Assembly: GCA_002898535.1 (NCBI GenBank)
Contig: BEHN01000002.1
Location: 124,001-188,000 of the forward strand
Origin: a bacterium HR11
GTDB taxonomy: Bacteria > Acidobacteriota > HRBIN11
Length of the DNA: 64,000 nt
Direction of reading: 5' to 3'
In this document: piece after piece, positions 1,958-52,586 of the stretch
How the letters are laid out: each line of letters opens with the position of its first letter
Numbering within the stretch: position 1 is the first letter of the stretch
Position numbers and translations under genes: made by a program
Notes under the pieces: model-generated
Databases searched by the model: none
The model's input: only the letters and a program-made list of their open reading frames with translations
What the model was told of the DNA's origin: nothing

Positions 1958-3008
1958 GCGGCCGTCCCCGACGGGCCTGGAACTCCACGAGGACGAAGCC
2001 AGCCTGGTCGCCGAAGAGGCCCTGGCCCTGGCCGAAGTCATGGCCGGCCCCCAACGGCCCCGCCTCCTGCGGCTGGCGCAGACGGCCCGGACAGGCTTTG
2101 TGCCCGAGGACCTCGTCGACGTCCTCGAGGGCCTCGCCGTCCTGGTCCTCCAGAGCGGCCGCGCCCGCCGGCACGCCCGAGCCGAGGGCGAACGCCTCTG
2201 GACTCAGGTGCTCCGACGGACCCCGCGCGGCCAAGAACTGCAAGAACAGGTCGAAGCCGTGAATCGAGCCCTGCAGGCCCTCGTCGGCCGACGGTTGGAC
2301 GCCCTCCGGGTCGAATGCCGCACGCTGGGCCATTTTACCTTCACATTGGCGACGGAGGGCGTCGCCCTGACCCTGGCCGTGCGGGCCGACGGCGTGCAGG
2401 TCGAGAGCGTCAGCGCCGAGGGCGCCCGCCGGCCCGAGCCGTCGACGGGGGCTGAACGACGCGGTGTGTGCGTGTGGCTCACGGGACTTCCCGGGGCTGG
2501 TAAGAGTACGGTCGCATCGCTGGTCGCCGAACGGCTCCGGGCCGAGGGCCGGCCCGTCGAAGTCCTCGACGGGGACGTCGTCCGTCAACACTTCTCCCGA
2601 GGCTTGGGCTTTTCCCGGGAGGACCGCCTGGAGAACATCCGGCGGGTCGCCTACGTCGCCCGCCTGCTGGTCCGGCACGGCGTATACGTGATCGTCGCCC
2701 TCGTCTCGCCCTACCGGGAAGCCCGGGCGGCGGCCCGGGCCCTGATCGGAGACGAAGCCTTCCTGGAAGTGTACGTCCGCTGTCCCCTGGAGGTCCTGGT
2801 CCGTCGAGACCCGAAGGGTCTGTATGCCCGAGCTCTGCGGGGAGAAATCCCCGCCTTCACGGGCGTCAGCGACCCCTACGAGCCCCCGGAGGCGCCCGAC
2901 CTCATCCTCGACACGGACCGGGAGCCGCCCGAGACGAGCGCCCGGCGGGTCCTGGACCTCCTAAGCCGCTGGCGGGACGGCGTGACGAAAGGAGCTCACG
3001 GCTCATAG
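1947..3008 (+). CDS. cysC: APS kinase (CysC) with an unrecognised N-terminal domain
   Basis: 353 residues. The C-terminal half (about 173-345) is a canonical adenylylsulfate kinase: Walker A GLPGAGKS at 180-187, LDGDVVR, GFSREDRLENIRR and the F-x-G-V-S-DPYE region near the end. It phosphorylates APS to PAPS. Residues 1-165 are not a PUA or ATP-sulfurylase domain that I recognise: a helical part (about 10-125, rich in Leu, Ala, Glu and Arg) is followed by a short beta-rich stretch (about 127-157). The ATG at 1947 overlaps the end of cysH and is preceded by GGAGGGAG. ATP sulfurylase is not in the window and may lie upstream. What the N-terminal domain does is unknown. Confidence 0.9.
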   Translation: MSGERPSPTGLELHEDEASLVAEEALALAEVMAGPQRPRLLRLAQTARTGFVPEDLVDVLEGLAVLVLQSGRARRHARAEGERLWTQVLRRTPRGQELQEQVEAVNRALQALVGRRLDALRVECRTLGHFTFTLATEGVALTLAVRADGVQVESVSAEGARRPEPSTGAERRGVCVWLTGLPGAGKSTVASLVAERLRAEGRPVEVLDGDVVRQHFSRGLGFSREDRLENIRRVAYVARLLVRHGVYVIVALVSPYREARAAARALIGDEAFLEVYVRCPLEVLVRRDPKGLYARALRGEIPAFTGVSDPYEPPEAPDLILDTDREPPETSARRVLDLLSRWRDGVTKGAHGS

Positions 3009-3060
3009 TTGGGGTCATGCCGATCCGCCTGTCTGCCCTCGACGACTGCTCATGACGCCG

Positions 3061-4734
3061 TCACGTCAACGTATAGTTCGGCCCGTCGCCGCCCTGGGGC
3101 GGACTCCAGCGAATGTTGTCGTAAGGGCAAGCAAATTCGCAGATCTTCGGATGCAGACAGTTTTCGTGGCTGATGACGATCCGCGCCTCGGACGGCTCCC
3201 ACCGGAATACGTCGCCGGGACAGAACTTCGTGCAGGGGCTGTCGTACAGGCGCTGGCACTCCAGGCAGAGGCCGCTGTCGACGATCCGCAGATGGGACGG
3301 CTGTTCATCGTACTTGGGAGCCCCGCGGGCGATGTCCGACCTTTTGTCCAGAATCAAGGCGTCGTCCCAACGGACCGGCGGCCGGGGCGCCTGGCTCCCG
3401 TGCCGGGCGAGTCGGTGGCCGACCCGAATGGGCAAGGGGTCTCGAAACAAGCGGCCCCCGGTCCATCGGTACAAACCGGCCCGGAGCAGACCCAGTAGGA
3501 AGCCGTCCTGAAAGGCCTGCCGGAAGTTGCGGACCCGGTAGAGCTCCTCCCAGGCCCAGCTCGCCCGAAGGCGACGCTCGTACTCGGCCAGCCGTTCTTC
3601 CGAAAAATCGCCGGCCTGCCACGCGTCCCAGGCGACTTCGGCGGCGACCATGCCTGAATAGACGGCCAGGTGGATGCCCTTATTGCGGGGCACGTTGACG
3701 AGGCCGGCCGAGTCGCCCGTCAGCAGACCGCCCGGCATGTAGAGGCGGGGGATGGCGTAGTAGCCGCCTTCCGGGATGATGCAGGCACTGTACTGAACGA
3801 CCCGGCCGCCCTGGAGATGCCGGTGGACGTACGGATGAAGCTTCCACCGCTGGAGCTCCTCGTGAAGGTCCAGGTCCGGGTCCGTCCAGTCCAGGCTGTA
3901 GACGAGCCCGACGGCGACGTAAGGCCCGCTCATGTCGTAAAAGAAGCCGCCTCCGAAGGTCCCGTACCGGGCCGGGTAGCCCAGGGTCGTAAAGATTTTG
4001 CCCGGGGGGTAGTCCTTGCGGGGAAGTTCGATGACCTCCTTGACGGCCCCGCTGTAAATCATCGGTTGCCGCCCCCCGGCCAGCCCAAAGGCCCGGATCA
4101 CGACCCGGGCGACCGTCCCGTGCGCGCCCTCGGCCAGGATCGTCACGGGGGCATAGATGTCGGTCCCGGGGTCGTAATTCGCCCGTGGCTGGCCGTTCCG
4201 GTCCAGGCCCTTGGGCCCCGTCCGGACCCCGACGAGGCGGCCGCCCTCGATGATGGGCTCGACGACGGACGTCTCCGTCAGGATCGTCACGCCGAGCCGT
4301 TCGGCCTCCTCGGCCATCCAGCGGGCGACCTTGCTGAGGGAAACGACGTAGTTGCCTTCATTCTTCAGCTCCGGCGGCAGGGCCCAAGCGGGAAATCGCA
4401 GGGCCCGCCGGGGCGTCAGGTACAGGACCGCCTCTTCCGTGACCCGTTGTTCGAGGGGCGCCCGCCGGTCAAAGTCCGGGATGAGTTCCCGGAAGGCGCG
4501 TGGGTCGATGACGGCCCCCGACCGCAAGTGAGCCCCGACGTACCGACCCTTCTCGACCAAGACGATGAAGGGCTCCCGACCGCCGGACCGGGCCGAGTCC
4601 CGGGCCCGTTGACCCAGGCGAATCGCCGCGCTCAGGCCGGCCGGACCGCCCCCGACGATGAGGATGTCGGCTTCGAGACGTTCGCGCGCCCGGGCCACCT
4701 CCGCCTCCTGGAAGGATATCGAGTGTCGAGGCAC
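3061..4734 (-). CDS. Electron-transfer-flavoprotein:quinone oxidoreductase (ETF-QO)
   Basis: About 557 residues from a GTG at 4734, the usual ETF-QO size. It passes electrons from ETF (acyl-CoA and other dehydrogenases) to the membrane quinone pool. The FAD dinucleotide motif GGGPAGLSAAIRL is near the N-terminus. The C-terminal Fe-S domain has CLECQRLYDSPCTKFCPGDV and ends in GGDGPNYTLT. The last cysteine cluster reads NCLHPKICEFACPYDN, whereas the family usually has CLHCKTC: the middle Cys is Pro, and an extra Cys appears four residues after the motif. The open frame extends further to 4932, but that extension runs through a degenerate W2 repeat tract and is probably not coding. No ETF genes are adjacent. 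Confidence 0.87.
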   Translation of the reverse strand: MPRHSISFQEAEVARARERLEADILIVGGGPAGLSAAIRLGQRARDSARSGGREPFIVLVEKGRYVGAHLRSGAVIDPRAFRELIPDFDRRAPLEQRVTEEAVLYLTPRRALRFPAWALPPELKNEGNYVVSLSKVARWMAEEAERLGVTILTETSVVEPIIEGGRLVGVRTGPKGLDRNGQPRANYDPGTDIYAPVTILAEGAHGTVARVVIRAFGLAGGRQPMIYSGAVKEVIELPRKDYPPGKIFTTLGYPARYGTFGGGFFYDMSGPYVAVGLVYSLDWTDPDLDLHEELQRWKLHPYVHRHLQGGRVVQYSACIIPEGGYYAIPRLYMPGGLLTGDSAGLVNVPRNKGIHLAVYSGMVAAEVAWDAWQAGDFSEERLAEYERRLRASWAWEELYRVRNFRQAFQDGFLLGLLRAGLYRWTGGRLFRDPLPIRVGHRLARHGSQAPRPPVRWDDALILDKRSDIARGAPKYDEQPSHLRIVDSGLCLECQRLYDSPCTKFCPGDVFRWEPSEARIVISHENCLHPKICEFACPYDNIRWSPPQGGDGPNYTLT

Positions 4735-5140
4735 TCCCCCATTTTTAATCCGCAATTCGCAATCCGCGGGTATGCAAGATACAGGATCGCTCCGGCAGGA
4801 TACAAGTTCAGGTGGATGTTCCGTTATAGAGGCTCGACCGTCGGGTGACCTGGGTGATGCAAGATGCAAACCCGATAGGGCGTTTTGGTCCCGACCCACC
4901 CTTATGATGCCTTTCCGAACACCCGCGGTCATTCGGGCGTTTTAAAACATGCCCACCGGGTGGCAAGAGCAGGATGTGGGGTCATAGAGAAAGACGGGGA
5001 CTCGGGACCCAGTTCCCACTTTCCCCGTTCCCTGGCCTATCTGCCCATCTGCCTACTGCCGAGTACCTGAAAAGTCGTCCTCCTCGGGGACCGGAGAAGC
5101 CGAACCCATCAGGGTCTTCACGGGCCGAACGGCTCGGCTG
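4735..5140. repeat. Intergenic region with W2 and W3 tracts and a REP-A copy
   Basis: A W2 heptamer tract (GATGCAA type) lies at 4771-4811 and again at 4857-4872, upstream of the ETF-QO gene. A short W3 run (CATCTGCC type) is at 5036-5060. A diverged REP-A copy in minus orientation occupies about 5068-5139: it keeps GAGAAGCCGAACCCATC and ends in GAACGGCTCGGCT. No protein-coding gene is convincing. Confidence 0.55.
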
Positions 5141-5197
5141 AAAAAAGAAGGGGGGAGGCGGGAGGCACGGATGGAGGGGCGTGATCCGTGCCCTCCC
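5141..5197 (-). terminator. Rho-independent terminator-like hairpin downstream of tgt
   Basis: On the minus strand GGGAGG(G)CACGGAT pairs with ATCCGTGCCTCCC (5160-5197, one bulged base). After a C-rich stretch of about 12 nt comes TTCTTTTTT. The spacing between stem and T-run is longer than in a classical terminator, so efficiency is uncertain. Confidence 0.5.
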
Positions 5198-5445
5198 TTT
5201 GGTTGGCCCGGGTGAGGCAGGTATGAAGTCCTGGGGCCTTCATGCAATTTTGGTGCCGCAATCAGCGGTTTTCGGGGCCTTTCCAATAAATCGGTCCGCA
5301 TTTCTCTTGGATGCGCATCCTTTCCGGGTCTCCTCCTTCTTTTTATGAGATGAATTCTATCTTGACCCCTCCAGGTCCCCCCTCGGGCGCCCCCTTCACA
5401 TCCAAATGGGGTCCTTTTATGTCCCAATGATGTGGATGTCGTGAA
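5141..5445 (-). ncRNA. Candidate structured RNA between tgt and the ETF-QO gene
   Basis: This interval is less GC-rich than its surroundings and has no credible reading frame. Read on the minus strand it holds five inverted repeats in series: ACATCCA/TGGATGT enclosing a second GGG/CCC-containing arm (5398-5439), the perfect palindrome GGATGCGCATCC (5309-5320), CCGC-TGATT-GCGG (5256-5268), TGAAG/CTTCA (5224-5242), and a 13 bp stem with one bulge (5160-5197) followed downstream by TTCTTTTTT. It could be an independent small RNA or the structured 3' end of the tgt transcript. It matches no RNA family I can name. The 5' boundary is a guess. Confidence 0.35.
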
Positions 5446-5557
5446 AAAATCATACATTCAGCGTGACGACCCCATCAGACCCGTGTCGGTCATCGGTCTG
5501 GGGCGGAGGGACGGGTCAGGATAAAGCGTGGAGTCGGTCGGGGGCCTCGAACGCCGG
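5446..5557. other. Short spacer downstream of tgt
   Basis: It covers the stretch between the tgt stop and the candidate RNA. I see no gene, repeat word or clear hairpin in it. Confidence 0.3.
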
Positions 5558-7119
<1,562 letters not shown>

Positions 7120-7131
7120 CGGCACCTCCCG

Positions 7132-7229
7132 GTATCGGGAATTCGGCAGTCCGAGAGTCCGGCAATTCGGGAGCTCGGCAGTTCGGGAGTTCGGGAATTC
7201 GGCAACTGCCGAACCCCCGAATTGCCCGA
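7132..7229. repeat. W1 octamer tract (CGGGAATT type), partly palindromic
   Basis: Degenerate 8 bp units such as GGAGTTCG, GGAATTCG and GGCAATTC run in one direction from 7132 to about 7208, then invert (CCCCCGAATTGCC), so the right end can fold on itself. The tract lies directly upstream of the membrane-protein gene at 7119 and just before the stop codon of the peptidase gene. Confidence 0.75.
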
Positions 7230-8426
7230 TCAGCGTTCGGTCGGCCGCCGCCACGGACGGCCCATCGAACGGCCCAGTTCGACCAGGCGGTCGATCGGCA
7301 GAGCCTCTCCCCGGCGGCCCCGGTAGCCGACCATCGTCTCGGCCTTCAGGAGGGCATTATAGACGGCCTCCTCGGTCGCCTCCACGACGCCCAGGAACAG
7401 GGGATTCAGGGCTTCGTGCAGGACGGGCGGGACCGACGGCGGCGTCCGCTCCGCCCCGGCCCGACGGCGGACGGCCGGATGTGTGCTGAAGGCGATGGCG
7501 TAGTCCCCGCTTCCGTGTTGCATGAAGCTCCCCGTCCGGGCGAGGCCGAGGAACGCCCGTCGAGCGAGCCGACGGAGCTCATGCGGCCGGAGGGGCGCAT
7601 CGGTGGCGATGACGACGATGGCCGACCCGCCCGGCGGCGTCCGAGCCTCCGGCCAGGGGAGGAGGCCCCAAGCCCGGCCGACGGGCACACCGTCGACCGT
7701 CAGGAGACCCCCGTAGTTGGCCAGGACGAGGACGCCGACCGTCCAGCCGCCCAGCTTTTCGGGGAGCCGCCGGGACGCCGTCCCGATGCCGCCCTTCCAG
7801 CCGAGGGCCATCATGCCCGTCCCGGCCCCCACGGCGCCCTCCTCGACGGGACCCGTCCGGGCCTGCTCGAGGGCCGCTCGCACGTGCTCCTTCCGGACGG
7901 CCCGCTTCCGGATGTCGTTGAGCCATCCGTCGTTGCATTCGGCCACGACGGGATTGATCGAGCGGACGTCCTCGTTGCCCGGCAGGCCCAACATGTAGTC
8001 CAGGAGGGCGTCGGCGGCCGTGAAGACGCTCAGCGTGTTGGTCAGGACGACGGGCGTCTCCAGCTCACCCAGCTCTTCGACCTGGCTCAAGCCCAGGAGC
8101 TTGCCGAAGCCGTTCCCGACGGCGATGGCCGCCGGGACCTTCTCCTGGAACAGGTTCCCCGGATGGGGTCGGACGACGGTCACGCCCGTCCGGACGTCGT
8201 CGCCCTCGATCAGGGTGACGTGGCCGACCTGCACGCCGGCGACGTCCGTGATGGCGTTCCAGGGACCCGGCGGCAAGACACCCGGCTCGATCCCCAGGTC
8301 CCGAGCACGGAAACGGCCTTCGGCCGCCATCGCCCCAGCCATCGTCGATAGGCTCAGCCCCACGACCCATCCGACCCAGATGGCCCGTCGGCCGCCGCAC
8401 CGTCCAAGACGAACCCCGCGGCCCAT
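7230..8426 (-). CDS. DmpA/P1-family aminopeptidase (Ntn-hydrolase fold, MEROPS S58), probably exported
   Basis: 398 residues. It is expected to autoprocess into two chains and to release N-terminal residues from peptides (D-aminopeptidase or beta-aminopeptidase activities are known in the family). The N-terminus has Arg-rich residues, then a hydrophobic run and AGAMAAEG, a plausible signal peptide. Family blocks: GPWNAITDVAGVQVGH, AIAVGNGFGK, GAGTGMMALGWKGGIGT. The presumed cleavage point is the Gly-Ser in PPGGSAIVVIATDAPL, with Ser as the new N-terminal nucleophile. The gene starts 3 bp after the regulator gene's stop, so the two are probably cotranscribed. The substrate cannot be told from sequence. 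Confidence 0.88.
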   Translation of the reverse strand: MGRGVRLGRCGGRRAIWVGWVVGLSLSTMAGAMAAEGRFRARDLGIEPGVLPPGPWNAITDVAGVQVGHVTLIEGDDVRTGVTVVRPHPGNLFQEKVPAAIAVGNGFGKLLGLSQVEELGELETPVVLTNTLSVFTAADALLDYMLGLPGNEDVRSINPVVAECNDGWLNDIRKRAVRKEHVRAALEQARTGPVEEGAVGAGTGMMALGWKGGIGTASRRLPEKLGGWTVGVLVLANYGGLLTVDGVPVGRAWGLLPWPEARTPPGGSAIVVIATDAPLRPHELRRLARRAFLGLARTGSFMQHGSGDYAIAFSTHPAVRRRAGAERTPPSVPPVLHEALNPLFLGVVEATEEAVYNALLKAETMVGYRGRRGEALPIDRLVELGRSMGRPWRRPTER

Positions 8427-18863: not shown

Positions 18864-19331
18864 AGGAAAATAGGATGAGGATGCGAGATGCAAGATGCAA
18901 GAGCAGTTCGGCAGTTCGGGAATCCGGGAAGGCTGTTCGACGGCCGACGTAGAAGGCAGGGGGCGTCCATCGTTCCAAGTCCCCACGCCTCCCTGAAGCT
19001 TTCTTGACTCTTCGCCTTCTCCTGTCGCCGACCGCCGGCGCCGGCCTCAAGGACTTATCCCCCTCTCCCGCCGGCCTCCCAATGCCCGAGCTCCCGAATG
19101 GCCGGACTCCCGAATTCCCGAATGGCCGGATTCCCGAACTGCCGAACTCCCGGATTCCCGAACTGCCAAACTGCCGAACTGCCCTTTGCTTGAAAAACCG
19201 TCCTTCCCGAAGGGTCGGAAAAGCCGAACCCATGCGGGTTTTCACGAACCGAACGGCTCTGTTATATCTTGCATTCCGCATCCTGCATCTCATATCTTCA
19301 GGGATACCCCGCCGCCCCGGACGGAGAGGCC
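18864..19331. repeat. Divergent spacer packed with repeats (W2, REP-D, W1, REP-A, W2)
   Basis: From left to right: a W2 tract (18872-18902); REP-D (about 18915-19050), closely similar to 51887-52018; a W1 tract in CCGAACTCCCGAATT orientation (19088-19182); an almost perfect REP-A in minus orientation (19181-19264) with GAAAAACCGTCCTTCCCGA and ending GAACGGCTCTGTTA; and a second W2 tract (19264-19300) ending about 30 bp before the PHP gene. Each of the divergent genes thus has a W2 tract in its leader. No coding sequence is seen. Confidence 0.75.
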
Positions 19332-43620: not shown

Positions 43621-43720
43621 AGAACCGTTCGGTTCGGGAGAATGGTTCATAGCCGCTATGGGCCATGAGCCAATAAGGCTGAACCCATCCGGGGTTTCAC
43701 GAACCGAACGGCCCCGTTAT
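43621..43720. repeat. REP-A derivative with inverted ends
   Basis: The left end reads AGAACCGTTCGGTTCG in plus orientation and the right end GTTTCACGAACCGAACGGCC in minus orientation, so the element looks like two REP-A halves head to head. It overlaps the yggT stop codon by a few bases. Confidence 0.6.
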
Positions 43721-51515: not shown

Positions 51516-51803
51516 CAGACCCCACCCGGGCGAAGGGTGATCCACTGGGTGTCGGGCTGTTGAAAAGGGCCTAACGCCTGACACCGAACACCTCACGCCC
51601 CGTACCCGACACCTACGTTTATTTTACCGGGACTGAACGACTCTGCGAACAGAGCCGTTCGGTTCGTGAAAAACCGCATGGATTCGGCTTTTCCGACCCT
51701 TCGGGAAGGACGGTTTTTCAAGCCAAGGGCCATTCGGGAGTTCGGGAGTTCGGCAGGTGGGCAGGTCGGCAGGTCGGCCGGGGGACCGGGCGACCCTTTT
51801 CAT

Positions 51804-52569: not shown

Positions 52570-52586
52570 TTGGCACGGCCTTTGCA
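52570..52586 (+). promoter_or_regulatory. Sigma-54 promoter candidate upstream of lon
   Basis: TTGGCACGGCCTTTGCA matches the -24/-12 consensus TGGCACG-N4-TTGCA at every conserved base, with correct GG-to-GC spacing. It points at lon, 240 bp downstream. I see no enhancer-binding activator gene nearby. Confidence 0.55.

Follow-up and report, generated by a model that had tools for sequence, protein, structure and literature searches.

A probable sigma-54-dependent small RNA downstream of tgt in an uncultured Acidobacteriota bacterium

Results

Genomic setting

The stretch at positions 5141-5445 lies between two genes that are both on the minus strand. Positions refer to the window, the whole 64,000-nucleotide stretch of DNA that was analysed, which is on contig 2 of a genome (hereafter G000) assembled as 49 contigs totalling 2.99 Mb. 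On one side is tgt, encoding tRNA guanosine(34) transglycosylase (5558-6691, minus strand; TIGR00430, E = 1.3e-140, and PF01702; the start codon was picked by eye). The next downstream gene, in an open frame at 3061-4932 of the minus strand, encodes an ETF-QO-like FAD oxidoreductase (PF21162 and PF05187), the true start of which is probably around 4700. Two congeners, both Acidobacteriota bins, were used for comparison: JAUQPV010000139.1 (isolate JZ-1.bins.94, hereafter G001) and JANXAA010000263.1 (isolate SKYB104, hereafter G002).

An earlier sequence-only reading had proposed a structured RNA here, in a stretch lower in GC than its flanks. The GC content of the stretch (0.55-0.59) is lower than that of tgt (about 0.68-0.70); the left flank at 4651-5100, however, is equally low (0.57-0.58). 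The stretch had also been described as free of coding potential, and no convincing gene was found in it. A minus-strand frame of 134 codons (5053-5457) was excluded by indels among the three genomes, and a plus-strand frame from the ATG at 5223 was excluded by a one-base indel between G000 and the other two.

As had been noted, the repeat words of the surrounding intergenic DNA are missing from the stretch: it contains no dispersed-repeat DNA, and the neighbouring repeat copy stops at 5140. This decayed copy (5035-5140, plus strand; 54 matches in G000, 43 in G001 and 5 in G002) abuts the predicted RNA described below and is no part of it. The sole match of 5141-5557 in G000 was its own locus (the next best had an E value of 0.09), and this single-copy status rules out that the stretch belongs to the dispersed repeat. 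The repeat itself, about 80-100 bp long, occurs in the window at 5035-5140, 19163-19259, 51652-51720, 769-850 and 43678-43712 (loci L002-L047 in the whole set). There are at least 40 copies in G000, at least 40 in G001 and few in G002, and no match was found in 7 other genomes searched, with at most 40 candidates scored per genome. The copies often form head-to-head pairs, have the terminus CGAACCGAACGGCTCTGNTA and adjoin runs of short words such as CTGCCNATCTGCC. The repeat looks like a miniature inverted-repeat element; a TNA target duplication is our guess. About 170 bp of G000 (4953-5125) is missing from G001, where both sides are joined, and this difference is the decay or loss of the adjoining repeat copy. 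A plus-strand hairpin with a T run at 4915-4950 (GCGGTCATTCGGGCGTTTTAAAAC), with similar hairpins in G001 and G002, is a possible terminator.

Conservation of the block next to the repeat copy

In a DNA search of 40 genomes, strong matches to the stretch were obtained in the two congeners only (E = 3.1e-73 and 1.4e-51), and many other genomes matched weakly (E of 0.0019 or worse). Homologues beside tgt in relatives had been suggested as a check on the proposed RNA, and a lack of conservation as evidence against it. Both congener matches sit after tgt, and the stretch is conserved in both.

When the three genomes were compared in pairs, the 88 positions from 5231 to 5144 of the minus strand differed by 0, 4 and 4 substitutions; G002 also has one insertion. 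At the four-fold sites of tgt, the same pairs have identities of 0.80, 0.68 and 0.69, and the binomial P values of the block against these rates were 2.7e-9, 2.9e-10 and 8.7e-10, with coding DNA as the baseline. G000 and G001 share another stretch of 89% identity within the same intergenic gap (4747-4952). Because of this stretch and the coding baseline, it is the comparison with G002 that bears the weight. Over 5455-5258 (minus strand), the three genomes showed 68-70% identity with indels, and 5259-5456 is presumed to be activator-binding (enhancer) DNA. The first 100 nt or so past tgt were barely alignable.

The near-frozen block corresponds to a predicted small RNA of about 92 nt (5141-5232, minus strand; hereafter RNA A). 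Its start, around 5232, was predicted from the sigma-54 box described below, and its end was placed around 5141. The comparative case for RNA A consists of three genomes.

Family and homologue searches

A covariance search against Rfam, which had been proposed as a further check, gave no family near the gathering score for the stretch. No family of Rfam 15 exceeded its gathering cut-off in the target and its relatives, and the best sub-threshold rows were far below it (for example, mir-207 with 17.5 and 20.8 bits versus 88). Over the window, a distant tRNA was the only match near the gathering score. 6S RNA (RF00013) gave no match in G000 or the window, in a search of which the control was positive in 5 of 14 genomes; G000 may lack 6S RNA, have a diverged copy, or carry it where the assembly has a gap.

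A covariance model of RNA A (93 nt, with the promoter left out) was searched, with stricter filters at the scoring step, against 396 genomes that were sampled from a larger set for the phylum; the class was represented by five genomes. Strong matches were found in the genus only. Outside the genus, three genomes had matches with E values of 8.3e-4 to 4.6e-3 per genome, within long open frames. Three of 396 genomes at E of 0.01 or less per genome is the chance expectation, and thus no credible homologue beyond the genus was found in the genomes searched. Five weak matches (L111, L113, L114, L115 and L116) lie inside open frames of at least 275 codons and were taken as chance. A sixth (L112) overlaps a 218-codon open frame, yet is the second locus described below.

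Hairpin, tail and presumed 3' end

The sequence-only reading had listed five inverted repeats (H1 to H5). All five are present in the sequence; one of them, H5, is kept in all three genomes. The arms of three were computed (5398-5407/5430-5439, 5223-5231/5235-5243 and 5164-5172/5184-5192), and two more were found by eye on the minus strand (GGATGCGCATCC and CCGCTGATTGCGG). In G001 and G002, respectively, the pairs kept were 5/10 and 6/10 for H1 (9/10 in G000 itself), 0/5 and 1/5 for H2, 4/4 and 2/4 for H3, 4/6 and 4/6 for H4, and 9/9 and 9/9 for H5. The region 5135-5455 as a whole folded like its shuffles (z = -0.02 on the minus strand and -0.29 on the plus strand). A structured RNA of 305 nt was therefore rejected, on the grounds of the shuffle-like fold and the loss of four of the five hairpins.

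The conserved hairpin (5160-5197, minus strand) has an 11-nt C-rich loop (CACGCCCCTCC, 5183-5173), and 13 of its 13 pairs are found in all three sequences. When H5 was folded alone (5156-5200), its minus-strand fold (z = -3.37) surpassed every one of 200 shuffles, and its plus-strand fold (z = -2.86) surpassed 198 of 200. On the minus strand, the 93-nt block of G000, G001 and G002 folded only moderately better than shuffles (z = -2.21, -1.54 and -1.20, respectively); the corresponding plus-strand values were -0.63, 0.20 and -0.64.

The hairpin of G002 has one change in the loop, a C insertion that closes a bulge, and two stem pairs in which A-U has become G-U. With these changes, the minus-strand hairpin is stabilised from -21.0 to -27.9 kcal/mol, whereas the energy of the plus-strand hairpin stays the same (-23.0 and -23.2 kcal/mol). 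The changes from A-U to G-U are the pattern expected for a putative minus-strand RNA. No two-sided covariation was found in the hairpin among the three genomes. Since no pair is altered on both sides and shuffled 3' letters give equal counts, covariation is not demonstrated. In 331 columns there were two strict dyads of at least 5 pairs that occupy the same columns of the three sequences, and both lie within the frozen block (column shuffles gave a mean of 0.12 and a maximum of 2). They are the hairpin itself and AAGGG with the CCCTT of the tail.

The hairpin is followed by a C-rich tail (GCCTCCCCCCTTC, 5147-5159, minus strand), which is identical in the three genomes. Little of the tail is paired in the ensemble predicted for G000; both loop and tail of RNA A are mostly unpaired in the predicted ensembles, and would thus be exposed C-rich segments. 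A T-run had been reported after the last stem. It exists as six T residues at 5146-5141 of the minus strand, the presumed 3' end, and is found in G000 and G001, with TTTGGG in G002; it is, however, separated from the stem by the 13-nt C-rich sequence. The layout of an intrinsic terminator, with a U run directly after a GC-rich stem, is absent, given the 13-nt spacer in G000 and G001 and the altered run in G002. The terminator scan gave no minus-strand terminator at the stem and T run, and gave a plus-strand site at 5176-5194.

Probable sigma-54 promoter

A -24/-12 element (CGGCACCAAAATTGCA, 5243-5258, minus strand) that fits GGCAYN5TTGCA is found in the same place in all three genomes, with GG-N10-GC upstream of RNA A in each orthologue. 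It is known that sigma-54 polymerase contacts GG and TGC at -24 and -12 (PMC3844500). The GG and TGC of the element therefore predict a start around 5232, where the frozen block begins. The distance from the box to the start of the RNA A model is 9, 8 and 8 nt in G000, G001 and G002.

The window has two exact matches to the pattern, versus 0.07 expected. A longer sigma-54 pattern with one mismatch allowed also occurs twice, versus 3.06 expected by chance; the one-mismatch count is no higher than chance, and the support for the promoter thus comes from the exact matches. The sites were also scored with a matrix of 22 printed Salmonella sigma-54 sites, the weakest of which scores 15.1. The box of RNA A in G000 scored 11.9, which is third of 127,964 positions, yet is under the weakest training site. 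The boxes of RNA A scored 21.2 in G001 and 10.6 in G002, so that two of the three (G000 and G002) are weak relative to 15.1. The window's best sigma-54 site by this matrix (18.7) is TGGCACGGCCTTTGCA at 52571-52586 of the plus strand, about 240 nt before lon (TIGR00763). In G001, an exact box lies about 150 nt before lon, and an exact box precedes lon in two of the three genomes. Control of lon by sigma-54 would be unusual.

Genome-wide, the exact pattern was found 16, 12 and 15 times in the three genomes versus 5, 6 and 2 times for the reversed pattern, and is thus about 3-fold commoner. All 43 exact boxes were inspected with their downstream sequence; three belong to RNA A and two to the second locus. 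Exact boxes also precede, in all three genomes, the gene for a protein starting MPVVHSA, which we take to be YifB/ComM-like (L159, L169 and L176), and that for a small exported-looking protein starting MKTF(D/G)RRS (L163, L164 and L183; the G000 copy was read in DNA). These two genes are candidate regulon members. The remaining boxes within long open frames may be chance.

RpoN (PF04552) is encoded in all three genomes, and strong matches to PF00158 are found in each (20 matches in G000, 16 of them with E below 1e-30). Since the control search with PF00158 was positive in 14 of 14 genomes, weak matches to it are uninformative. A possible sigma-70 promoter upstream (TTTACA-17-CATAAA in G001, by eye) was rejected, as its spacing is between 17 and 19 depending on the genome, and a scan of 3001-7300 found none. 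After tgt in 27 loci outside the genus (L068-L094), no sigma-54-like box was found by the strict pattern. From its sequence and position, 5258-5243 is likely to be a sigma-54 promoter.

A second locus and the upstream region

The next-best match of the RNA A model in G002 (19 bits, E = 0.15; hereafter locus B) starts 9 nt past an exact box, of which that genome has 12. An orthologue with its own exact box is found in G001, with 89% identity to that of G002 over 75 aligned positions. The matrix scores of the boxes of locus B were 7.5 in G001 and 16.3 in G002. A model of locus B found it in these two genomes and gave no match in the 49-contig assembly of G000.

In both genomes, locus B consists of the box, 11-14 nt, GGACTTCCCTGAGACCCAGGCCC, a GC hairpin of 9 bp, a C-rich spacer of 12-13 nt and TTTTTT. 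RNA A and locus B have in common the box, the GACTTC start (GGACUUC in the RNA), the hairpin, the length of the spacer and the U run, the last of which is gone in RNA A of G002. In the 201 sequences searched, which were selected and include redundancy, the box followed by GACTTC was found only at A and B. Joint alignments of the two loci place the middle wrongly, and no counts were taken from them. The gene after locus B matched no family; it begins, as counted by eye, about 57 nt (G001) or 151 nt (G002) downstream, and this closeness makes a leader role possible for B.

The region upstream of RNA A was compared with 39 other upstream regions, two of which were those of locus B. For G000, the two B loci ranked first and second, and 1 of 1000 shuffles reached each score. 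For G001, one B ranked first, barely (36 versus 35), with its score reached by 27 of 1000 shuffles and that of the other B by 148 of 1000. For G002, a region other than B ranked first (49) and one B was tied second (33); shuffles reached the B scores 30 and 230 times in 1000. Because the similarity is uneven among the genomes, a shared activator of A and B is only suggested by these sequences. A candidate activator site at 5456-5411 (minus strand) contains TGTATG..GGGACATAAAAG. Its position, about -180 to -225, is rather distant for an activator site, since a location some 70-150 bp upstream is common (PMC3844500). The upstream 200 bp or so, including the four other hairpins, look like promoter and enhancer DNA.

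Discussion

The conservation in the congeners, the pairing-preserving changes in the last hairpin and the promoter element argue for a gene for a minus-strand RNA. The proposal of a structured RNA after tgt would therefore hold in part: a conserved minus-strand RNA very probably follows tgt, and it probably comprises the last 92 nt or so only (5232-5141). The promoter element, the frozen block of about 90 nt at its predicted start, the hairpin, the U run and the sister locus are most simply explained by a sigma-54-dependent small RNA. We therefore consider it probable, with somewhat less confidence than for the conserved RNA as such, that RNA A would be a separate small regulatory RNA of about 92 nt under sigma-54 control.

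The transcription of RNA A, the formation of its 3' end, its targets and its activator are what we infer from the DNA. An activator protein would bind upstream, perhaps at 5456-5411, and would remodel the RpoN polymerase at the box, so that the RNA would be produced in response to the activator's signal. The exposed C-rich loop CACGCCCCUCC and tail GCCUCCCCCCUUC, and perhaps ACCUGCCUCACCC near the 5' end, would then pair with G-rich Shine-Dalgarno regions, and pairing with target mRNAs would lower their translation. We put this pairing forward tentatively, by analogy with known RNAs; C-rich segments are less specific in a GC-rich genome. As for the 3' end, our guess is a pairing between the tail and the hairpin's 5' arm (AAGGG/CCCTT, invariant in all three genomes), which would bring the U run beside the stem. 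This alternative pairing is less stable in the computed fold.

There are other possible interpretations. The box may drive a messenger that carries the block as a leader or attenuator; the gene expressed would be the ETF-QO-like gene at A and, at B, the gene about 60-150 nt downstream. A gene on the same strand lies downstream at both loci, that of B is near (some 57 nt away in G001, 151 nt in G002), and U runs in leaders can attenuate. The leader at A, however, would be about 450-850 nt long, with a length that differs in each genome and little conservation past the block in G002, and in G000 it would contain the decayed repeat copy. We regard this interpretation as unlikely.

A gene for a peptide of 14 codons on the plus strand (5171-5215, MEGRDPCPPFGWPG), with its ribosome-binding site within the hairpin, is very unlikely. 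By eye, the frame is uninterrupted in each genome, two of its three internal substitutions are silent, and the insertion is outside the frame. The frame, however, spans only 45 of the 88 frozen positions and runs opposite to the promoter box; it has no counterpart at locus B by eye, and the G-U pattern suits the minus strand. It is similarly improbable that the block is the terminator of tgt, or a processed 3' untranslated region of it without a promoter of its own. Its position directly after tgt on the same strand in all three genomes, with a hairpin and a T run, would agree with this. The U run, however, is missing from G002 and is separated from the stem by 13 nt in the other two genomes, the scan found no minus-strand terminator, and a terminator would require neither 88 frozen positions nor a sigma-54 box. 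Least probable is a protein-binding DNA element without an RNA product: conservation by itself cannot separate DNA from RNA function, but the changes in G002 preserve the minus-strand hairpin, and a transcript is favoured by the box, the U run and the existence of locus B.

The reading of RNA A as a sigma-54-dependent small RNA may be extended to locus B. In both RNA A and B, the 3' arm of the hairpin is partly repeated in the tail. GlmZ and GlmY act as regulator and decoy. A and B might likewise be sibling small RNAs under one sigma-54 activator, in which the 5' arm would pair with either copy of the 3' arm: one fold would expose the C-rich tail for targets, and the other would hide the tail and set the end of the transcript. 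Such a pair of regulator and decoy, which would be the first described in Acidobacteriota, is quite unlikely.

Small RNAs driven by sigma-54 (Qrr, GlmY/GlmZ and Pxr) are already known, and RNA A probably adds a new RNA of the same class. Among the nearest is Pxr of myxobacteria. Pxr is an intergenic RNA of about 108 nt with a predicted sigma-54 promoter, an upstream enhancer region and paralogues within the family, and the printed probe implies a C-rich run (PMC5568312, PMC5684412). RNA A is alike in its size, probable sigma-54 promoter, presumed enhancer, intergenic position and second locus, as compared by description. Pxr has three stem-loops, whereas RNA A has one kept hairpin, and Pxr lies beside a gene for a sigma-54 response regulator, whereas RNA A lies between tgt and the ETF-QO-like gene. 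The nearest strong match to PF00158 in G000 lies on a contig other than contig 2.

GlmY and GlmZ of enterobacteria have sigma-54 promoters under activator proteins (PMC3844500), and Qrr1 of Vibrio is described as a small RNA transcribed with sigma-54 under an activator (PMC10162802). Targets and activators are known for these RNAs. RNA A has no Rfam match, and no sequence relation to them was detected. In IsrR and FsrA, single-stranded C-rich regions in the loop and beside the stems meet Shine-Dalgarno regions (PMC9410917). These are RNAs of Firmicutes, and IsrR acts in AT-rich genomes in which G-runs are rare, whereas the genome of RNA A is GC-rich and its pairing is predicted.

A search of the openly available literature gave, among the matches listed, no small RNA under the control of sigma-54 in Acidobacteriota. 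If the present reading is true, RNA A would be such an RNA, with a sister locus, and its exact 5' end, its promoter and its sigma factor would be predicted in a testable form. It would also show that a promoter motif combined with the conservation of an RNA can reveal small RNAs in lineages that are known from metagenome bins only.
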